Under the pieces are notes generated by a model. It was not told where the DNA came from. It worked only from the letters and a program-made list of their open reading frames with translations, and made no database searches. A stretch of 64,000 bases of DNA, taken from assembly GCF_002198115.1 (NCBI RefSeq), contig NZ_NGNR01000001.1, positions 62,001-126,000 on the forward strand, read 5' to 3'. This DNA comes from Robiginitalea sediminis (GTDB lineage: Bacteria > Bacteroidota > Bacteroidia > Flavobacteriales > Flavobacteriaceae). Of this stretch, positions 2 through 62,180 are shown piece after piece. Numbering within the stretch: position 1 is the stretch's first letter; each line of letters opens with the position of its first letter. Made by a program: the position numbers and the translations under genes.

Positions 2-1237
2 TCTATGGAGTACGTTTTGGACGATACAGATGCAGAACTCCTGCTCTGTACGGAGGCCTTTGCCGGAAAACTGGCTCCTCTGCAAGGCCGAAACGGGTTG
101 GATGTCCTACGTCTCGAAAATTTAGGGGAGGCCTCCGGCCCCCTTCCGGAAATCGGACCGGACCGAAGGGCAATGATCCTGTATACGAGCGGCACCACCG
201 GACCGCCTAAAGGGGTGGTTACCACCCACGCCAATATCACCACGCAGATAACCACGCTGGTATCTTCCTGGGAATGGGAGCAGGAAGACGAAGTCCTGAA
301 TGTCCTGCCCCTCCACCATGTACACGGTATCGTGAACATGCTCTGCTGTGCCTTGTGGAGCGGTGCCTGTTGCCGGTTCCTGCCCAGGTTTGAGCCCGAT
401 GCGGTCTTTGAAATTTTCACCGAGGGCGAAGTGAATGTCTTTATGGCTGTCCCCACCATCTACTATAAACTCATTGCCCATTACGACTCCCTTCCGACAT
501 CACGGCAAAAACAGATTTCGGAACAGCTGCGGGGCTTCCGCCTGATGGTTTCAGGATCGGCTGCCCTGCCGGTGAGTGTCCTGGAACAGTGGAGGGACAT
601 CAGCAGCCATACCCTTCTGGAACGGTATGGGATGACAGAAATGGGGATGGCCATCAGCAACCCGTACCGGGGCGAAAGGCGACCCGGCCATATCGGGCAG
701 GCCCTGCCCGGGGTCCGGATCCGCCTGGCGGACGAAAACGACCTCCCGGTCCCTCCTGGGGAGCAGGGCGAAATCCAGGTAAAAGGAGACAACGTCTTCT
801 CCGAATATTGGGGAAAACCGGAGGCGACGCAAAAGGCATTTACCTCGGACGGATGGTTCCGAACGGGCGACATGGCCCTCCTGGACCAGGGGAGTTACCG
901 GATCCTGGGGCGGAATTCTGTGGATATCATCAAATCCGGCGGGTATAAGATCTCGGCCCTTGAAATCGAGGAAGTCCTCAGGACGCACCCGGCCGTTAAA
1001 GATTGCGGGGTGGTGGGCCTGCCCAACGTGGAGTGGGGGGAAATTATAGGGGCCGCAATTATCCCGGACGGGGCCGCTACTTCCTCCGAAACCCTGGTGG
1101 AATGGCTGGGTGAGCGCCTGCCTTCCTATAAAGTGCCGCGTGTGTACATCACCGTAGAAGACCTTCCCCGAAACGTCCTGGGAAAGGTCACCAAAAATGA
1201 ACTGAAATCCCTGTTTCCTATAACCGGAGCCGCATGA
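2..1237 (+). CDS. Malonyl-CoA synthetase-like acyl-CoA synthetase (5' partial)
   Basis: An ANL-superfamily adenylate-forming enzyme that joins a carboxylic acid to CoA using ATP. The frame is open to the left edge, and the first visible residues align to the interior of the family, so the N-terminal part lies outside the window. Visible motifs are the P-loop YTSGTTGPPKGV near visible residue 60, the hinge-region GWFRTGDMALLD, and the C-terminal NVLGKVTK carrying the catalytic lysine. The stretch LPLHHVHGIVN followed by NVFMAVPTIY is characteristic of the ACSF3/MatB malonyl-CoA synthetase branch. The stop overlaps the start of madL by 4 bases (ATGA). Adjacent malonate carrier genes support malonate as the substrate. 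This is inferred from family and context; a methylmalonyl-CoA or other short-chain acid role remains possible. Confidence 0.85.
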   Translation, partial: SMEYVLDDTDAELLLCTEAFAGKLAPLQGRNGLDVLRLENLGEASGPLPEIGPDRRAMILYTSGTTGPPKGVVTTHANITTQITTLVSSWEWEQEDEVLNVLPLHHVHGIVNMLCCALWSGACCRFLPRFEPDAVFEIFTEGEVNVFMAVPTIYYKLIAHYDSLPTSRQKQISEQLRGFRLMVSGSAALPVSVLEQWRDISSHTLLERYGMTEMGMAISNPYRGERRPGHIGQALPGVRIRLADENDLPVPPGEQGEIQVKGDNVFSEYWGKPEATQKAFTSDGWFRTGDMALLDQGSYRILGRNSVDIIKSGGYKISALEIEEVLRTHPAVKDCGVVGLPNVEWGEIIGAAIIPDGAATSSETLVEWLGERLPSYKVPRVYITVEDLPRNVLGKVTKNELKSLFPITGAA

Positions 1238-1617
1238 AAATTTATGGTGTAGCACTTCTTTGTGCCTGTTTCCTGGCGGGCAAGAGTATCGGGCACCTTT
1301 TGGGGGAACTACTCGGGATTCCCGGAGATATCGGGGGCGTTGGCTTTGCCATGCTGCTGCTGATGGGGATAAGTGCCTATTTGCGCAAGCGCGGGCGTTT
1401 TTCGGCAGAATCCGAGACCGGGATTACCTTCTGGAGTGCCATGTATATCCCCATTATCGTAGCCATGGCCGCAACCCTCAATGTGAAGGCAGCCTTCTCC
1501 GGAGGCTGGACAGCCCTTCTGGCCGGGGCGGCGGCTACCCTGGCCGGGTTCCTGCTGGTGCCCGTCCTGACCCGGCTGGGCGCGAAGGGAGACTCTCACG
1601 ATAATCCGGAGCACTGA
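1234..1617 (+). CDS. madL: Malonate transporter subunit MadL
   Basis: A small integral membrane protein of 127 aa with about four hydrophobic segments. The N-terminus (MKIYGVALLCACFLAGKSIG) and the GGVGFAMLLLM segment match the MadL family, the small subunit of the sodium-dependent malonate carrier MadLM. It starts inside the stop of the preceding CoA synthetase and its stop overlaps the madM start by one base, so the three are translationally coupled. MadL and MadM together import malonate across the inner membrane; the synthetase would then activate it to malonyl-CoA. Confidence 0.88.
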   Translation: MKIYGVALLCACFLAGKSIGHLLGELLGIPGDIGGVGFAMLLLMGISAYLRKRGRFSAESETGITFWSAMYIPIIVAMAATLNVKAAFSGGWTALLAGAAATLAGFLLVPVLTRLGAKGDSHDNPEH

Positions 1618-2366
1618 TGGACTGGTTAGATCCTGTAATCGGCAAAAACGGACTCATCCTGGCCTTCCTAGTGGTGGGCCTTATCCTGCTGTTCTCCTAT
1701 GCCGTATCCCATTTCCTGGGACGGGGACGGATCCCCGGCGCCGCCCTGGCGATCATCATGGGGCTGGCCCTGGCCTTTACCGGATCCGAAAAGGGCATTG
1801 CCGACCATCCCCTGTTTGCAGGCATGGCTGTTCTGGGAGGTTCGATGTTCCGGGATTTCTCTGTAGTGGCTACTGCCATGGGCGCCAACCTGGAAACCAT
1901 TCGTAAAACGGGGCGTGCTGGGTTTCTTTCCCTCCTTATAGGGGTTTGTATCTCCTTTATAGTCGGGGTTCTGGTGGCATGGGCCCTGGGATATACCGAT
2001 GCCGTAAGCCTTACCACCATAGGGGCCGGCGCCTGCACATATATCGTAGGGCCCGTTACCGGGTCGGCCATTGGTGCAACATCGGAGGTCATTGCCATAT
2101 CGGTAGCGGCCGGGGTGGTCAAAACCCTGGTGACCACTATAGGGACCCCACTTATTGCCAGGCGGATAGGACTCACAAGCCCCCATGCCGCCATGGTCTT
2201 TGGTGGCCTGATTGGCACCACCAGCGGCGTGGTGGCAGGCCTTGCTGCAACCGATGCCAAATTGGTCCCCTACGGGGCTATGACCGCTACCTTTTATACC
2301 GGCCTGGGGTGTCTGTTATGCCCCTCTATCTTTTATGTGCTCCTCCGGATTTTCATTCCGGCATAA
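1617..2366 (+). CDS. madM: Malonate transporter subunit MadM
   Basis: The large subunit (249 aa) of the MadLM malonate carrier, with about seven to eight hydrophobic segments. Family hallmarks are LGYTDAVSLTTIGAGA, YIVGPVTGSAIGATSEV, MVFGGLIGTTSGVVAGLAAT and LVPYGAMTATFYTGLGC. The ATG shares its first base with the madL stop. It acts in the inner membrane with MadL. No malonate decarboxylase subunits are visible nearby; the route here appears to be malonyl-CoA formation instead. Confidence 0.9.
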   Translation: MDWLDPVIGKNGLILAFLVVGLILLFSYAVSHFLGRGRIPGAALAIIMGLALAFTGSEKGIADHPLFAGMAVLGGSMFRDFSVVATAMGANLETIRKTGRAGFLSLLIGVCISFIVGVLVAWALGYTDAVSLTTIGAGACTYIVGPVTGSAIGATSEVIAISVAAGVVKTLVTTIGTPLIARRIGLTSPHAAMVFGGLIGTTSGVVAGLAATDAKLVPYGAMTATFYTGLGCLLCPSIFYVLLRIFIPA

Positions 2367-2375
2367 CCCGATTCC

Positions 2376-3470
2376 ATGACCAAACGCAATCTGGGCCACC
2401 TGTCTTTTATGCTTGCCGGCTGCACCCTGGCCTGGCTGCTTTACCTTTCGGTGGCCGGGGAACTCGGGAGGACCGGAGTCCCGATGGTGCTGTTTTTTGT
2501 CCTTACGGGACTGGGGTTTCAGGGCTTCGACAACCTAAGAGGATATACATTTTCGACGCTTATTTTTGCCGGGGTTGCCCTCTCCCTTTATTTTCCTGAG
2601 TACTTCATCGCTATAGGCCGTTTTAAACTCGCCGCCCTGATCATCCCCCTGATTCAGGTCATTATGTTCGGGATGGGCACCGCTATGAGCCCGTCCGATT
2701 TTATGGCGGTATTCCGGGCCCCGAAAGGGGTGCTGATCGGACTGTCCGCCCAGCTTACCCTCATGCCTTTATTAGGCTACTTCCTGGCCAGTTTCAGTGG
2801 GTTGCCGGCAGAGATAGCCGCGGGAATCGTCCTGGTGGGGTGCTCCCCCAGCGGGGTGGCATCGAATGTGATGGCCTACCTGGCAAGGGCTAACCTGGCG
2901 CTGTCCATTACCATAACCTCGGTGGCCACCTTGCTGTCGCCTTTTATCACCCCCCTTGCGATGCGCCTGTTGGCCGGAGAATTCGTGCAGATCGATGTAG
3001 TTCAGATGATGTGGGACATCGTTAAGATGATCCTCCTCCCCATTGGGATGGGCCTTTTGGTTAACAGGCTTTTGGGCAGGCATACCGCACGGATTACACG
3101 CATTATGCCCCTGCTGTCCATGCTGGCAATAGGGCTGATTATCACCATCATTACCGCGGCAGGGAGGGACAGCCTGCTTCAGATGGGAGGGGTTCTGATC
3201 CTGCTGGTCCTGGTGCATAATTTCAGTGGTTATCTTTTAGGGTACGCCTATGCCCGCCTGCTCCGCATGGACCGCAGGGACGCCCGCACCATCGCCCTTG
3301 AGGTTGGGATGCAGAACAGTGGCCTGGCTTCAGGCATTGCGTACTCCCTGGGCAAAATCGCAACCATGGGCCTTGCCCCAGCGGTTTTCGGGCCGCTCAT
3401 GAATATTTCAGGCTCTGCCCTGGCCAGCTATTGGCACAACCGGGACCCTGAAAAAGCAGCATCGGCTTAA
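2376..3470 (+). CDS. BASS-family (bile acid:sodium symporter-like) transporter
   Basis: A polytopic membrane protein of 364 aa with about ten hydrophobic segments. The signature LVGCSPSGVASNVMAYLARA followed by LALSITITSVATLLSPFITP is typical of the BASS/SBF family, whose members carry organic acids such as bile acids, pyruvate or pantothenate with sodium. The first two helices are unusually extended compared with ordinary members. It begins 9 bases after madM on the same strand, so it is probably co-transcribed with the malonate genes. Its substrate cannot be read from sequence; a carboxylate related to malonate is an inference from context. Confidence 0.8.
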   Translation: MTKRNLGHLSFMLAGCTLAWLLYLSVAGELGRTGVPMVLFFVLTGLGFQGFDNLRGYTFSTLIFAGVALSLYFPEYFIAIGRFKLAALIIPLIQVIMFGMGTAMSPSDFMAVFRAPKGVLIGLSAQLTLMPLLGYFLASFSGLPAEIAAGIVLVGCSPSGVASNVMAYLARANLALSITITSVATLLSPFITPLAMRLLAGEFVQIDVVQMMWDIVKMILLPIGMGLLVNRLLGRHTARITRIMPLLSMLAIGLIITIITAAGRDSLLQMGGVLILLVLVHNFSGYLLGYAYARLLRMDRRDARTIALEVGMQNSGLASGIAYSLGKIATMGLAPAVFGPLMNISGSALASYWHNRDPEKAASA

Positions 3471-4445: not shown

Positions 4446-5519
4446 ATGGCACCCCCATTGAACATGCTCGACGGGGTTCGCCCCAAACCCATTCGCATCA
4501 GTAAAGATGTGGAAGCCCTCGCCCGCGAGGTACGGGACACCAGCCTGTCAATTACAGACCGCCTGGAGTCCTTTGAAGATATCATCAACCTGGAAGTAGG
4601 CGATACGGCCTTAACCCGGCTTCGGAACCTGGAGCGGGAGTACGACCTACGGCAGCTCTATGTGAAATTCGAAGGGGACAACCCCACCGGCACCCAGAAG
4701 GACCGCATTGCCTTTGCCCAGGTATACGATGCCCTCAGAAGGGGATTCACCACAGTAGCCCTGGCAACCTGTGGGAATTACGGGGTGGCCATGGCCTTCG
4801 CCTGCTACCTGGCCGGGCTGCGGTGCCGGATCTATATCCCGGCCTCCTACCATACCGAACGGGTACGGGAAATGGAAGACTACCATGCAGAAATCATCCG
4901 TTTGCCAGGCACTTACGAGGATGTGGTGATGGCTTCGAGCCGGGACGCCAGCGAACTGGAACTCTACGATGCGAACCCGGGCGGCAGCAATACCCCCCTG
5001 CAGCTGAAGGCCTACTCCGAAATCGCCTTCGAAATTTACGACCAGTTGCGCGATGCCCCCAAATACGTGGCCTGCCCGGTCTCCAATGGCACCTTGCTGG
5101 CCGGGGTCTACCGGGGGTTTGTGAACCTGTTTAAGCGGGGAAAAACCTCCCGCATCCCTATTTTCATCGCAGGGTCTTCCAGCCACAAGAACCCCATCGT
5201 AGTTTCTTTCAACAAAGGACTCAAACACTGTGCAGACCTGGACCCGGCCAAAATAAGGGAAACGGAGATCAACGAACCCCTTATTAACTGGCACAGTTTT
5301 GACGGGGACGAAGCCCTGTATGCCCTGAAGCAAACCCATGGGCGGGCAGCTCATGTGAGCGACCAGAAAATGCGGCAGATGAGCGCCTCCATCTTAAAGA
5401 GCGACGGGATGAAGGTGCTGCCGGCTGCCACGGCAGGACTTATCGCCCTACTGGAGATACACCAGGAGGCAGACCTGGAAAACGACCGCTTTGTGGCCAT
5501 TGTGACGGCCAGAAACTAA
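4446..5519 (+). CDS. Fold-type II PLP-dependent enzyme (threonine synthase-like)
   Basis: A 357-aa cytosolic PLP enzyme of the tryptophan synthase beta/threonine synthase fold. GDNPTGTQKDR places the Schiff-base lysine at about residue 85. ATCGNYGVAMA is the phosphate-gripping loop (usually TSGN.G), and SNGTLLAGVYRGF is the glycine-rich loop. GDTALTRL stands where most relatives have GNTPL. The family catalyses beta- or gamma-replacement and elimination on amino acids, but the active-site loops differ from true threonine synthase, so the reaction is open. An in-frame ATG at 4464 is an alternative start. It is the first gene of a five-gene operon, and its stop is almost joined to the next gene. 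Confidence 0.82.
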   Translation: MAPPLNMLDGVRPKPIRISKDVEALAREVRDTSLSITDRLESFEDIINLEVGDTALTRLRNLEREYDLRQLYVKFEGDNPTGTQKDRIAFAQVYDALRRGFTTVALATCGNYGVAMAFACYLAGLRCRIYIPASYHTERVREMEDYHAEIIRLPGTYEDVVMASSRDASELELYDANPGGSNTPLQLKAYSEIAFEIYDQLRDAPKYVACPVSNGTLLAGVYRGFVNLFKRGKTSRIPIFIAGSSSHKNPIVVSFNKGLKHCADLDPAKIRETEINEPLINWHSFDGDEALYALKQTHGRAAHVSDQKMRQMSASILKSDGMKVLPAATAGLIALLEIHQEADLENDRFVAIVTARN

Positions 5520-5553
5520 TGTGCCGCGTATAAGCACGCAAACAACCAGAATT

Positions 5554-6621
5554 ATGAAAAGAGTTATTGACGGCACCGCAATTGTCTATGCCGACGGCGC
5601 CTTTAACACCCCTAACGGAAAAACGGCCCATGGCCTTGTGCGTTTTACAGAACGGTATGAGGTGCTTGGGGTTATAGACCGGAATTACGCCGGCCGTGAT
5701 GCCGGGGAAGTTCTGGATGGCCGCCATTACGACATCCCCATTTTCAGAGACCTCCGGGAGGCGACGGAGGCTCTGGGAGCAGGCCGTTTGGATTATTTCG
5801 TGGTTGGGCTGGCCCCGGATGGCGGACGCCTCCCGGACGAAGCACGCTCCGTAATCCGGCAGGCCATTGGCCTGGGGATGCATGTGGATTCCGGGTTGCA
5901 CGATTTCCTGTATAAAGACCCGGATATAGCCGGCCTGGCCAAAGAAAAGGGATGCCGCCTGAGGGATATCCGGCGGACGCCCGAACGGGAAGAGCTCCAC
6001 TTTTTCACAGGAAAGATCGAGGAGGTGGATTGTCTGAAGGTTGCCGTCCTGGGCACCGACTCGGCAGTGGGGAAACGCACCACAGCCTGGATCCTGGTCC
6101 ATGGATTCCGCAACGCAGGCCTAAAGGCCGAGCTCATCGGGACCGGGCAAACCGCCTGGCTGCAAGGAGCCAAATACAGTATGGTGATGGACAGCTGCAT
6201 CAACGATTTTGTCTCTGGTGAAATAGAACATGCCGTTCACGAGGCCTGGAAGCAAGAAAGCCCGGACCTGCTGGTCATAGAAGGACAGGGCAGCCTGATG
6301 AACCCGGCATACCCCGGAGGGTTTGAAATCCTGGCTGCCGGAAGGCCCGACTACGTAATCCTGCAACACGCCCCCATGCGCAAAGAGTACGATGGCTTCC
6401 CGGGATACCCCCTGCACCCCCTGCCGGAACAAATCCGTGCCATTGAACTGATCTCGGGGAAAAAAGTCATTGCCATTACCGTAAACCACGAGGACATGGA
6501 AGCCGAAGCCATCGGCCCTGCCTGCGAAGCCATAGAAGCGGAAACAGGCATCCCCGCCTTCGACGTACTGGCCCATGGGCCGGAAGGACTTACCCAACTG
6601 ATCCGCAACTACCTGCCGTGA
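5554..6621 (+). CDS. DUF1611 P-loop protein (DgcN-like)
   Basis: A DUF1611 family protein of 355 aa: an N-terminal Rossmann-like domain, then a P-loop domain with GTDSAVGKRTT at about residues 167-177 and DLLVIEGQGSLMNPAYPGG as the Walker B region. I chose the ATG at 5554; a GTG at 5521 in the same frame would add 11 residues. Family members paired with an enolase-superfamily racemase have been described as D-glutamate N-acetyltransferase (DgcN) working with N-acetyl-D-glutamate racemase (DgcA). Such an enolase gene lies at the end of this operon, which supports a related acyl-amino-acid epimerisation. The substrate is inferred. The stop overlaps the next start by 4 bases (GTGA). Confidence 0.8.
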   Translation: MKRVIDGTAIVYADGAFNTPNGKTAHGLVRFTERYEVLGVIDRNYAGRDAGEVLDGRHYDIPIFRDLREATEALGAGRLDYFVVGLAPDGGRLPDEARSVIRQAIGLGMHVDSGLHDFLYKDPDIAGLAKEKGCRLRDIRRTPEREELHFFTGKIEEVDCLKVAVLGTDSAVGKRTTAWILVHGFRNAGLKAELIGTGQTAWLQGAKYSMVMDSCINDFVSGEIEHAVHEAWKQESPDLLVIEGQGSLMNPAYPGGFEILAAGRPDYVILQHAPMRKEYDGFPGYPLHPLPEQIRAIELISGKKVIAITVNHEDMEAEAIGPACEAIEAETGIPAFDVLAHGPEGLTQLIRNYLP

Positions 6622-8129
6622 GTCAACTTAAAGATTTTCAGGTATTGCGGAGCCTCAGGGTAGACCACCTGGAACTCAGCCGCAAGCGGGTGCAGGCCCG
6701 GTATACCGCAGTGCGGGAGGATGGGTCGGAAGCGTCCACGGACCTGATCTATTCCTACGAAGCAGACCTGTTTAACCCCGAGGACCCGGCAGACTTGAAC
6801 CTGGCCAGCATGATGGTGGCGCAGATAGCCCTCAATTACGGACTTTTCTGCCGGGAAATCGTCCTGGAGGGCCTGTACGACAAGGCAGACGAAAGCCTGC
6901 TGCGCTACATGCTCGAAAACACCAGCCGGGAGATCCTCACCGGGAAACTGCTGGCCCCGAACCCCTTCCTGAAACCCGGGTACCAACCCCTTGAAGCAGG
7001 TCGTCAAAAACGGTATACCCAGGCTACCCTTGTCATTACCCCGGAAGCCAAAAAGGAAATCCACAGCCCCTACCCCACGCCAGACTATGGGCGTTACGCC
7101 ATCCTCAGCAGCGGAGGCAAAGACAGCCTGCTCACCTACGGCTTAGTCCGGGAGCTGGGGGAAGCCCACCCGGTATACATCAACGAAGCAGGTCGGCACT
7201 GGTTCACCGCGGTGAATGCCTACCGTTATTTTAAGGCGAACGAACCCCGTACAGCCAAACCCTGGTGCAACAGCGACCGGGTCTTCACCTTTATGCTGAA
7301 ACAACTGCCCTTTATCCGGGAGGATTTTGCCTCGGTACGGGCAGATATCTACCCCATCCGGCTCTGGACGGTGGCCGTTTTCCTGTTCGGCGTCCTCCCC
7401 CTTGCCCTGAATCGCGGGGTGGGCAACATCCTGATCGGGGACGAATACGATACCACCGTGCGCGGAAACACCCAGGGCATCAGCCATTATTCCGGGCTCT
7501 ACGACCAAAGCCGGTTTTTTGACAATGCCTTTACCCGGTATTACCGGCAAAAAGGATGGCACCTGCGGCAGTATTCGATGCTCAGGAGCCTCTCGGAGCT
7601 CCTGATCATGAAGGTTCTCACAAAGCGCTATCCGGACCTGCAGGCCCTGCAGGTATCCTGCCACGCCGCCCACGAAGCGGAAGGAATAATGAAGCCTTGT
7701 GGAAAATGCGAAAAATGCCGGCGGATTATCGGGATGATGGTAGCCCTGGATGCCGATCCTGCCCATTGCGGCTACACCCCTTCACAGATCGAAGAGGGGT
7801 TGCGCCAGCTGGCCTCCCGTTCCATTAAGCAAATAGGCAGTGATGCGGCCCACCTGTATCACCTGCTTCGCGAAAAGGGCGCCCTCCCCGATACCGCCCA
7901 TGTCCGGAAGCTGGCCCGCCACCACCCGGAAATCCTGAAGCTGCGATTCGACTCCGGGCGCAGCCTCCTGGAAGACCTCCCTCCGGAGGTACGGGAACCA
8001 CTTTTCAGGATCCTGAGGCAGTACGCCACAGGCACCGTAATCAGAACCCCAAAAGGTTGGCAGGGCCTGGACCTGGACCAACACCTCAAAACACAACCCA
8101 AATACACACCCTATGCCGTTCAATCCTGA
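6618..8129 (+). CDS. QueC-like PP-loop ATP pyrophosphatase, unknown substrate
   Basis: A 503-aa protein with a GTG start inside the DUF1611 stop. Residues 164-170 (SSGGKDS) form the PP-loop that binds ATP and adenylates a substrate. C348 plus C361, C364 and C367 (CGKCEKC) reproduce the four-cysteine zinc site of QueC, which turns a carboxylate into an amide and nitrile in deazaguanine synthesis. The protein is about twice the length of QueC: about 160 residues precede the PP-loop and about 130 follow the zinc site. No other queuosine genes are near, so a different carboxylate substrate is likely. I read it as an ATP-dependent carboxylate-activating enzyme; function unassigned. Confidence 0.75.
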   Translation: MSQLKDFQVLRSLRVDHLELSRKRVQARYTAVREDGSEASTDLIYSYEADLFNPEDPADLNLASMMVAQIALNYGLFCREIVLEGLYDKADESLLRYMLENTSREILTGKLLAPNPFLKPGYQPLEAGRQKRYTQATLVITPEAKKEIHSPYPTPDYGRYAILSSGGKDSLLTYGLVRELGEAHPVYINEAGRHWFTAVNAYRYFKANEPRTAKPWCNSDRVFTFMLKQLPFIREDFASVRADIYPIRLWTVAVFLFGVLPLALNRGVGNILIGDEYDTTVRGNTQGISHYSGLYDQSRFFDNAFTRYYRQKGWHLRQYSMLRSLSELLIMKVLTKRYPDLQALQVSCHAAHEAEGIMKPCGKCEKCRRIIGMMVALDADPAHCGYTPSQIEEGLRQLASRSIKQIGSDAAHLYHLLREKGALPDTAHVRKLARHHPEILKLRFDSGRSLLEDLPPEVREPLFRILRQYATGTVIRTPKGWQGLDLDQHLKTQPKYTPYAVQS

Positions 8130-8910
8130 AACTTCATTTATGTGGGAAGAGATGAAATGGCCCGAAATCGAGGCTAAACTGAAGATCACCGATACCGCCA
8201 TCCTCCCCACAGGGGCCATCGAACAACACGGGCCCCACCTGCCGGTAGATGTGGATTTCTACGATGCCGTATATATGGCCCGGGCCGTGGCCGAGGCATG
8301 CGGCACCCCCCGGCCTTTTGTCCTGCCTGCCATCCCTTATGGCGTCTCATACCACCACAGCGCCTTTAAAGGAACCCTGAGCGTGACCAACAATGCGCTT
8401 TCGGCCCTTATTTACGACATCGGGATGTCCCTGGCCCATAACGGGATCCGGAAAATCATAATCCTAAACGGGCATGGGGACAACAAACCCACCCTTACCT
8501 ACGCGGCCCAGATGATCAACCGGGATGCCAAGATCTTTGTGTGCGTGGAAACCGGGGAAACAAGCGATATCGACCTCTACGAACACGTGGAGACCCATAA
8601 CGACATCCACGCGGGGGAACTGGAAACCAGCACCACCCTTGCCCTTCGCCCGGAGCTGGTAGACATGGAGAAGGCTGTAGACGAAACCCTTTACCTGGAT
8701 AACGAGTACCTGGAGTTTACTTCCGACCGGGGGGTAAACTGGTATACCCACACCCAGCGCCTTTCCCAGTCCGGCATTATTGGCAACGCCACCAAGGGTA
8801 CTGTGGAAAAAGGCAAGCTCATGTGGGAGATCTCCATCCGCAAAATGGTGGAATTCGTGGAGAGTATCATGCACACCCCCCTGGAGGAATTGCATCAAAA
8901 CCGGTACTGA
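8113..8910 (+). CDS. Creatininase-family amidohydrolase
   Basis: A 265-aa cytosolic metalloenzyme. TGAIEQHGPHLPVDVDFYDA carries the Glu, His and Asp metal ligands, NGHGDN gives the second His and AGELETS the second Glu, so the two-metal centre of creatininase is intact. The family hydrolyses amide or lactam bonds (creatinine, formamides, or the peptide precursor in MftE). It overlaps the PP-loop gene by 17 bases; an internal ATG at 8140 (MWEEMKW) is a possible later start. Its position between an amide-forming PP-loop enzyme and an epimerase suggests an amide or cyclic intermediate, which is inference. Confidence 0.88.
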   Translation: MPFNPETSFMWEEMKWPEIEAKLKITDTAILPTGAIEQHGPHLPVDVDFYDAVYMARAVAEACGTPRPFVLPAIPYGVSYHHSAFKGTLSVTNNALSALIYDIGMSLAHNGIRKIIILNGHGDNKPTLTYAAQMINRDAKIFVCVETGETSDIDLYEHVETHNDIHAGELETSTTLALRPELVDMEKAVDETLYLDNEYLEFTSDRGVNWYTHTQRLSQSGIIGNATKGTVEKGKLMWEISIRKMVEFVESIMHTPLEELHQNRY

Positions 8911-8911
8911 A

Positions 8912-9982
8912 ATGAAAATCCACTCCCTGGAATACGAACTTTTGGAGCTACGCCTGGCCGAACCCTATGCCATTGCCTATGAGACGGTCCATTCCAGCGC
9001 GAATATTATCCTGAAGGTGATAACCAGGGAAGGCCAGGTGGGCTACGGATGCGCCTGCCCGGACTGGCATGTTACCGGGGAGCGCCCCCATGAGGTACTG
9101 CGCCACCTGGAAGGGCCTGTAACCGATCTCCTGACTGGGGAGCCGGCCTTCCGGCGCAGGTACTACCACGAACAGCTCAAAACCCATTCCGGCCTTGGGC
9201 CCTCTGCCCTGGCCATGGTAGATATGGCCCTGCTGGATCTCATGGCCCGAAAGGCGGGCGTCCCCCTGTATCAGCTCTTGGGAGGGTACCGGAACCGGAT
9301 GGCCACCAGCATTACCATCGGCATACTGCCGCTGGACCAGACGCTTGACCATGCGGAACGGTTCCTGAAACAAGGGTTCAGGATCCTGAAGCTGAAAGGA
9401 GGGGCCCACCTGGAAGAAGACATTGAAAAGGTGCACCGGCTTCGGGAGCGATTCGGCCCAGGGTTCGACCTCTGGTTCGATGCCAACCAGGGCTATACGG
9501 CAGAACAGGCCATTCGTTTTATTTCCATGACCCGGGAGGCCCGAATCGAAATCCTGGAGCAGCCTACCCCTACAGCAGACCCCGAAAGCCTCGGGAAAGT
9601 AAGCCGGGAAGTGCCCATCCCCGTAATGGCCGATGAGAGCATCAAATCCCTGGCCGATGCCTTTCACCTGACCAGTGGGGAGATGATCGACATGGTCAAC
9701 ATCAAAATCCAGAAGGTAGGCGGTATACAGGAAGCCGGACATATCAATTCCGTGGCCCGGGCCGGTGGTTTAGAGGTCATGGTCGGGTGCCTGGACGAAT
9801 GTGGCCTGGGCATTTCCGCAGGCCTGCATTTCGCCCTGAGCCGGCCCAACATCCAATACGCAGACCTGGATGGCCACCTGGACCTGGTAGACGACCCATT
9901 CGGCCAGCTGTTCTCGCTGAAGGATGGGGTGCTGATCCCATCCGATTCCCCGGGCCTGGGGCCTATTCCTACGGGAATATAA
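8912..9982 (+). CDS. Enolase-superfamily dipeptide epimerase / N-acyl amino acid racemase-like
   Basis: A 356-aa enzyme of the muconate-lactonising subgroup. KLK at residues 160-162 gives the catalytic K-x-K, D190 (FDANQGY), EQP and MADES supply the metal ligands, and the loop DECGLGISAGLHFAL is at the C-terminal end of the barrel. This arrangement and numbering match L-Ala-D/L-Glu epimerases and DgcA. The frame is open upstream to 8780, but homology starts at MKIHSLEYELLEL, two bases after the creatininase stop, so ATG 8912 is chosen. It likely inverts the alpha carbon of a dipeptide or N-acyl amino acid, with the DUF1611 protein as functional partner. It ends 11 bases before a convergent gene. 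Confidence 0.85.
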   Translation: MKIHSLEYELLELRLAEPYAIAYETVHSSANIILKVITREGQVGYGCACPDWHVTGERPHEVLRHLEGPVTDLLTGEPAFRRRYYHEQLKTHSGLGPSALAMVDMALLDLMARKAGVPLYQLLGGYRNRMATSITIGILPLDQTLDHAERFLKQGFRILKLKGGAHLEEDIEKVHRLRERFGPGFDLWFDANQGYTAEQAIRFISMTREARIEILEQPTPTADPESLGKVSREVPIPVMADESIKSLADAFHLTSGEMIDMVNIKIQKVGGIQEAGHINSVARAGGLEVMVGCLDECGLGISAGLHFALSRPNIQYADLDGHLDLVDDPFGQLFSLKDGVLIPSDSPGLGPIPTGI

Positions 9983-61260: not shown

Positions 61261-62180
61261 AAGAGCGGTTCTACAGCCATGGCAAACTCCTGATTTCCGG
61301 CGAATACGCCGTGCTGGACGGGGCCAGGGGCCTGGCCGTACCCACCAGACGGGGGCAGTGGCTGGACGTGACCCCGGGAGAAGGCCCGGGGCTGCACTGG
61401 GTGAGCCGGGATGCAGACGGCAGCCCCTGGCTGGAGGCCTGGTTTGAACCGGAGGGACTCGTCCCAAACCTCACAAAAGGCCCCTTCCCCAAGGATCCGA
61501 AAGCCGGGTTGGTGCGCATCCTCCAGGCCACTATTGCCCTGAACCCCGGGTTTGCCGCCTTGTGCCAGGGTAAGACCGTGGAAACACAATTGGAATTCCC
61601 GAGGCCCTGGGGCCTGGGCTCCTCCTCTACCCTGCTGGCCAACCTAAGCCGGTGGGCCGGGGTAGATCCCTACGCCCTGCTTGAGGCGACCATGGGCGGG
61701 AGCGGATACGACCTGGCCTGCGCTACCGCCGCCGGGCCGGTATATTTTACACGGGTCGCAAGCGAAGCGCCTCTGGTAACCCCAGCACCCTTTAACCCCC
61801 CGTTTAAACAGGAATTGCTGCTGGTGTACCGGAATGTAAAACAGGATAGCCGCGAAGGTATCCGCAGGTACCGGGAAGCCGGCGGCCTTGGGCCAAAGGC
61901 CCTTCAGGAAATTACGGGTTTGGCAGAAACCCTTGCCACAGCCCAGGACCTCGGGAGCTTCCGCAATGCCATGGATGCGCACGAGGCCCTTATTTCCAAT
62001 GTACTGGGGATGCCTCCGGTACAAGAATCCCACTTCCCGGACTTCGACGGGAGTGTAAAAAGCCTGGGCGCCTGGGGTGGCGATTTTATCCTGGCTGCCG
62101 GGGGCACCGAGGCCACGGCCTACTTTTCAGGGAAAGGATTTACGACCCTCTTTCCCTTTTCCGACCTGGTTCTGATATAA
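61257..62180 (+). CDS. GHMP-family kinase (GYDIA group, likely mevalonate-pathway kinase)
   Basis: A 307-aa small-molecule kinase. SHGKLLISGEYAVLDGARG is the N-terminal GHMP motif, PWGLGSSSTLLANL the ATP-binding glycine loop, and GGSGYDLACATAAGPV the variant GYDIA motif. It begins inside the HMG-CoA reductase stop (ATGA), so mevalonate or phosphomevalonate is the most likely substrate; which one cannot be told from sequence alone. A terminator follows immediately. Confidence 0.88.
   Translation: MKERFYSHGKLLISGEYAVLDGARGLAVPTRRGQWLDVTPGEGPGLHWVSRDADGSPWLEAWFEPEGLVPNLTKGPFPKDPKAGLVRILQATIALNPGFAALCQGKTVETQLEFPRPWGLGSSSTLLANLSRWAGVDPYALLEATMGGSGYDLACATAAGPVYFTRVASEAPLVTPAPFNPPFKQELLLVYRNVKQDSREGIRRYREAGGLGPKALQEITGLAETLATAQDLGSFRNAMDAHEALISNVLGMPPVQESHFPDFDGSVKSLGAWGGDFILAAGGTEATAYFSGKGFTTLFPFSDLVLI

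Follow-up and report, generated by a model that had tools for sequence, protein, structure and literature searches.

What do five close-packed genes of Robiginitalea sediminis do together? They lie at positions 4446-9982 of the DNA analyzed here, a window of 64,000 nucleotides (positions 62,001 to 126,000 of contig NZ_NGNR01000001.1), and are designated by single letters. P (4446-5519, 357 amino acids) encodes a pyridoxal phosphate (PLP) enzyme, D (5554-6621, 355 amino acids from an ATG) a DUF1611 protein, Q (6618-8129, 503 amino acids from a GTG) a PP-loop ATPase, C (8113-8910, 265 amino acids) a creatininase-type hydrolase and E (8912-9982, 356 amino acids) an enzyme of the dipeptide-epimerase type. 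All are on the forward strand; 34 bp separate P from D, D and Q overlap by 4 bp, Q and C overlap by 17 bp and a single base pair lies between C and E. An earlier note on this DNA had described the genes as closely packed on one strand, as they are, and the family names that it gave them are broadly right (Pfam PF00291 for P, PF07755 and PF17396 for D, PF02633 for C, PF02746 and PF13378 for E). The reading that we favor, tentatively and at less than an even chance, is that this cassette inverts the alpha-carbon of an N-capped amino acid. D would cap the amino acid, E and/or Q-C would invert it, C would uncap it and P would make or use it. The side chain of the substrate is probably basic, to judge from residues of E and D.

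A contig scan of GTDB genomes with a seven-member Q alignment returned 191 relatives. The analysis continued with the best 80, and these loci are hence selected for likeness to Q. Enough flanking DNA was present at 65 of them (at least 2.6 kb before Q and at least 2.3 kb after it), and the exact order P-D-Q-C-E was found in 51. Since the order repeats to this extent, the five-gene arrangement is far beyond chance; the earlier note would have given up its pathway had the genes rarely been neighbors in other genomes, and they are neighbors in most of these. The other 14 flanked loci are P-D-Q-C (5), Q-C-E (3), Q-C (2), P-Q-C (2) and P-D-Q (2). In the three Q-C-E loci P-D was found about 8 kb upstream, and 7 of the 15 loci with short flanks also hold all five families. 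Q and C are fused in one open frame at 27 of the 76 loci with a C match, and, in the 54 loci where all five proteins are full-length, the pairwise distances of one family correlate with those of another at 0.75-0.90. The closest named relative found, Robiginitalea marina (L009), is 66-84% identical across the five proteins. When the neighboring proteins of the 80 loci were clustered, no family beyond the five occurred in more than 10 loci, and there is thus no regular sixth member.

The tree of 79 Q proteins spans ten phylum-level groups, as assigned by record title. On this tree the Bacteroidota label changes 5 times, compared with 14.7 times when labels are shuffled, and single Calditrichota, Thermodesulfobacteriota and SAR324 records nest within Bacteroidota groups. 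The low number of label changes and the nested single records together suggest that the cassette has been transferred between lineages, with the caveat that a bin may contain contigs of foreign origin. We reject plasmid or phage carriage, because Q had no match in 72,556 plasmid records and only one, weak and partial, in 50,697 phage records. A hypothetical protein of Xanthomonas phage phiXF1 (WZX06609.1; L097:2362-3666) is distantly related to Q in the C-terminal part of the latter, with an hhalign probability of 96.5 and 22.6% identity over residues 248-419; it has no NCBIfam match.

An even draw of 296 GTDB Bacteroidota genomes shows how the cassette is built up. In GTDB this phylum includes Melioribacteraceae, assigned by NCBI to Ignavibacteriota (L192). 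The even draw and the contig scan overlap in at least three loci, to judge from the few pairs compared: L192, L193 and L194 are the same DNA as L082, L014 and L019, respectively. Q is present in 7 of the genomes, DUF1611 exceeds its cut-off in 58 and P in 16. D stands beside P in all 16 of the latter (the window and 15 further neighborhoods), and the loci comprise 6 P-D-Q-C-E, 1 P-D-Q-C and 9 P-D-E, two of the nine with a divergent P. D and E are adjacent in the nine P-D-E loci and have Q and C between them in the window. Because every P locus has D and 9 of 16 are without Q-C, Q-C extends a P-D core. All 16 P-D sets contain E, Q-C or both, so that E and Q-C may serve one and the same step, either as alternatives or as complements. 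Outside the Q cassettes, 40 of 52 places with DUF1611 over its cut-off were fetched, and D was callable in 38; 5 of the 38 belong to the P-D-E loci described above and 33 are without P. An E homologue adjoins DUF1611 in 21 of the 33. The genome of the host (3.30 Mb, 15 contigs) contains a single DUF1611 match.

A search for an E elsewhere covered twelve genomes that have none beside Q. In L079 an E of 55% identity is encoded on another contig, and in the other 11 the best match is 30-41% identical; loss of E looks real in several cassettes, within assembly completeness. The corresponding search for D in five genomes without a cassette D gave best relatives of at most 38-45% identity in L032, L055, L072 and L083 and none in L037, and three genomes that do have a cassette D (L050, L057 and L058) each carry a second D at 40-42%.

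P is a fold-type II PLP enzyme with the PALP fold, in which a KDR motif is conserved in at least 99% of 70 sequences. It exceeds the cut-off of NCBIfam NF004996, a family named "threonine synthase" (411.5 bits vs 266), and falls below that of TIGR00260, the threonine synthase model (87.3 vs 167.1). ThrC of the host is encoded elsewhere in the genome and scores 253 bits with TIGR00260; P as the housekeeping threonine synthase is ruled out by these two scores. In P, a Gln takes the aligned place of the NPYR-motif Arg of 2zsj, a phosphate-binding residue. Since all 16 of the 296 genomes over the NF004996 cut-off have P beside DUF1611, the name of this family looks wrong in the even sample.

D consists of a Rossmann-like N domain and a P-loop domain, and its P-loop, with GKRT, is conserved in at least 99% of 74 sequences. 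The ATG at 5554 is its best start, as homologue alignments begin at this Met in 5 of 6 non-self loci and at residue 5 in the sixth; a GTG at 5521 is unnecessary. The predicted model of D (pLDDT 89.6) matches solved DUF1611 proteins and DgcN (7xrj, Foldseek E 1.6e-23), with much weaker further matches to the alpha subunit of succinyl-CoA synthetase and to BioD. These structural matches are compatible with acyl or ATP chemistry.

E belongs to the enolase superfamily, and residues K160, K162, D190, E216, D241 and K265, as well as the DxD at 318/320, are present in all 61 cassette proteins. With the dipeptide epimerases 3jva and 3rit it shares the catalytic KxK, the metal ligands and DxD; it differs from them in having Glu24 and Asp51 in most members and in falling under every NCBIfam cut-off. 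The best of these matches is to L-Ala-D/L-Glu epimerase (NF041118, 236.1 bits vs 500). Dipeptide epimerases are treated in PMC13338154.

D and E invite comparison with DgcN and DgcA, an N-acetyltransferase and an N-acetyl-D-Glu racemase. Both pairs are drawn from the same two protein families, but the cassette proteins lie far under the cut-offs of the DgcN model (NF041892, 147.4 bits vs 480) and of the DgcA model (NF042940, 142.2 vs 400), both of which are exceeded at L129, a locus with DUF1611 and an E homologue and no P. Moreover, residues 23/24/26 of cassette E are Tyr-Glu-Val/Ile, whereas the DgcA-type proteins of L129 and L130 have Arg-Gly-Arg, and the cassette adds P, Q and C to the pair. 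The D-glutamate route is mentioned in PMC10845958. We file the cassette as built on the DUF1611-epimerase pair, and separate from membership in the D-Glu pathway. The acylated amino acid or dipeptide proposed in the earlier note survives as a class of substrate, which fits the DgcN fold of D and the dipeptide-epimerase type and invariant DxD of E; the missed cut-offs give no support to the D-glutamate pathway itself.

The identity of residue 24 of E provides a clue to the substrate. In the 61 cassette proteins this residue is Glu in 58, Gln in 2 and Asp in 1, and residue 51 is Asp in 58. In 22 E homologues that lie beside DUF1611 without P, residue 24 is Lys or Arg in 13, Gly in 3, Thr in 2 and Glu, Gln, Val or Tyr in one each. 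Glu24 and Asp51 suggest a basic substrate side chain. The 13 proteins with Lys or Arg were then compared with the cassette proteins, and the other nine without P were left out. These 13 were chosen by residue 24, so that the swap in E is present by construction and differences in D make up the independent part of the comparison. D differs in parallel; its residue 249, for example, is Met or Leu in 79 of 79 cassette proteins and Arg in 13 of 13 of this group. The swap in E, together with the parallel change in D, points to a shift from an acidic to a basic side chain relative to the relatives without P.

C scores well above the Pfam cut-off of PF02633 (233.9 bits vs 31.3), and its EQHG and N-x-HG motifs are conserved in at least 99% of 76 sequences. 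Glu37, His39 and His121 are conserved and Asp123 varies; the latter occupies the aligned place of what we take to be the second-metal Glu of creatininase. The earlier note held that the catalytic residues of all five proteins are intact. The key motifs of P, D, Q, C and E are conserved, and the variable Asp123 of C speaks against full intactness. The best named NCBIfam match of C is the mycofactocin peptidase MftE (TIGR03964), and C is below the cut-off of that model (123.8 bits vs 172).

The SGGKDS motif of Q is invariant in 49 members, save for the Asp (at least 90%), and makes an ATP-dependent carboxyl chemistry plausible; C348, C361, C364 and C367 are invariant in the same proteins. The top neighbors of its predicted model (pLDDT 91.9) in the PDB are Cap9 (9nto, E 1.0e-3) and QueC (3bl5, E 1.7e-3, TM 0.67 on target), both borderline, and carbapenam synthetase follows weakly at rank 5 (E 5.9e-3, TM about 0.2). 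A viral structure library gave nine matches at E<=0.001, of which five are QueC-type by name, one is an adenine alpha hydrolase and three are unnamed. PDB sequence searches with Q or a Q profile returned chance-level matches alone, and a Pfam search of the window Q at E 0.01 gave no match; among the 49 members there are weak matches to DUF6395 (27) and to QueC PF06508 (17, E<=0.1, best 0.0067). With QueC, Cap9 and QatC (PF06508), Q thus shares the PP-loop fold, SGGxDS and CxxCxxC, but it is much longer (503 amino acids vs about 180-200 for the chains of Cap9 and QueC that it matched), its window copy is without a Pfam match and it is often fused to a creatininase. Passages of two papers on the QueC family, PMC13329287 among them, describe no such gene neighborhood.

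The nearest named family of Q, weakly, would be MurL, as set by the family model rather than by authentic MurL sequences: the NCBIfam model matches 45 of the 49 members at E<=0.1 (best 4.9e-9). According to PMC8788868 and PMC5808125, MurL uses one ATP, forms AMP and inverts peptidyl-L-Glu from L to D only. The earlier note took Q for QueC-like, an enzyme type that activates carboxylates to amides; this holds for the fold, and the named family nearest to Q is an ATP-dependent epimerase. Q as the source of D-Glu for the peptidoglycan of the host is ruled out by a MurI in the same genome (TIGR00067, 199.8 bits vs a cut-off of 146.65), and no Mur ligase was found among the annotated neighbors in the window.

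The two faces of Q bear on a second reading, possible but on balance doubtful, in which the cassette makes a small amidated or cyclised D-configured metabolite. P would make a non-standard amino acid, E would invert it, D would modify it, Q would act as an amide ligase or lactam former (as do QueC, Cap9 and carbapenam synthetase) and C would trim the product, a logic that would resemble D-cycloserine biosynthesis. It is the structural neighbors of Q that speak for this reading, together with a carbon-nitrogen hydrolase gene within 60 bp downstream of E at L020, L030, L039 and L085 (called by Pfam in L039, where it is GNAT-fused, and by similarity to L039 in the other three). Cap9 is an ATP-dependent ligase that joins an acid to a protein N-terminus, as given in PMC13329287. 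However, the named NCBIfam family with matches to most Q members is MurL, P-D-E occurs without Q-C in 9 of 16 loci, and a spread over ten phylum-level groups, without a sixth gene that regularly joins the cassette, is more in keeping with primary metabolism.

The fold that Q shares with Cap9 also raises the question of an anti-phage or protein-modification system of the Qat/Cap9 type, to which one of the 49 Q members adds a marginal match to QatC (E 0.051). The four partners of Q are metabolic enzyme families, though, Q is missing from the plasmid records and nearly so from the phage records, and PADLOC at E 0.01 matched none of the five window proteins. With no such match we reject a defence role, which we consider highly improbable.

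What the data show is a conserved unit, the families and folds of its members, their conserved motifs and E or Q-C in every P-D set of the even draw. For the inversion of an N-capped amino acid, the reading that we favor, we infer the following steps, their order and direction and the charge of the substrate. D would add an acyl or aminoacyl cap to the amino acid in a CoA- or ATP-dependent reaction, and E, as a metal-dependent epimerase, would reversibly invert the capped residue. Q would activate the carboxylate with ATP in a MurL-like manner and, with the fused or adjacent hydrolase C, would carry out a second, one-way inversion and/or the uncapping. P would make or consume the free amino acid. 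We lean slightly toward L-to-D synthesis over D-to-L breakdown, because the spending of ATP suits a one-way product. More doubtful is the fuller proposal of an undescribed, exchanged pathway in which a MurL-like ATP enzyme, often creatininase-fused, and a dipeptide epimerase would together invert a basic amino acid in one direction while it is N-capped and would feed P in bacteria of many phyla, the product or substrate of P being a D-configured or non-standard amino acid.

Several observations weigh against the favored reading. The window Q scores only 18.3 bits with the MurL model (NF041275; cut-off 700, E 6.6e-4), and at E 1e-3 this model finds matches in just 2 of the 296 genomes, both of them Q proteins. 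The structural neighbors of Q, Cap9 and QueC, make amide or nitrile products, not epimers. Cassettes without D (the two P-Q-C loci among 65) or without E exist, and relatives of D and E elsewhere in the searched genomes are just 30-45% identical, the one 55% E excepted. None of the transporters or regulators near the cassette is shared by more than 10 of the 80 loci, where most single neighbors are unannotated. As for the substrate, Glu24 is also present in one E without P (L149), and 3rit, presumably a cationic-dipeptide enzyme, has Arg at this place. Finally, DxD occurs in DgcA- and YcjG-type proteins as well and does not discriminate between N-acetyl and dipeptide substrates.

A third reading, an unlikely one, is breakdown or recycling. 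Dipeptides that carry a basic or diamino residue in the D configuration, such as those derived from peptidoglycan stems, would be turned into L-amino acids, which P would use. That the best NCBIfam match of E is an Ala-Glu dipeptide epimerase, although below its cut-off, would suit such a role. So would a DUF1611 gene without an epimerase at L141:7265-14291, which stands beside aspartokinase, diaminopimelate decarboxylase (lysA), aspartate-semialdehyde dehydrogenase (asd) and a relative of muramoyltetrapeptide carboxypeptidase (LdcA). Beta-lactamase-fold proteins accompany other DUF1611 genes in L162 and L152, and families of this fold are near the cassette in 8 and 10 of the 80 loci. On the other hand, the use of ATP by Q is hard to explain in catabolism and no family resembling peptidases is shared by more than 10 of the 80 loci.

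The order kept across ten phylum-level groups, and the fusion of Q with C, indicate a real metabolic pathway. The earlier note could match it to no described set, and among the open-access papers searched we likewise found nothing that fits and no paper linking these families, which is not proof of absence. Databases name the cassette piecemeal and in part wrongly, with P as "threonine synthase" and Q without any family. For the study of D-amino acid or N-acyl amino acid metabolism it is a defined target that can be assayed, and it could help to explain how MurL/QueC-type ATPases work; the nested sets D-E, P-D-E and P-D-Q-C-E make the roles separable.

In the window, a DUF202 gene ends 135 bp upstream of P, and a gene of the FGE-sulfatase family lies downstream of E on the opposite strand. 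Positions 5-3470 hold, in a row on one strand, an AMP-binding ligase, the malonate transporter subunits MadL and MadM and an SBF-family transporter, which looks like a set for malonate uptake and activation. Elsewhere, a PPDK_N protein, beta-lactamase-fold proteins and a TLC/HEAT protein form a recurring set near the cassette; it separates P-D from Q in L020, L030, L039 and L049, and is also nearby in L015, L017, L021 and L068. At L147:6192-9848 a class II DAHP synthase precedes the DUF1611-epimerase pair, and the pair in L149 is preceded by the same gene family.

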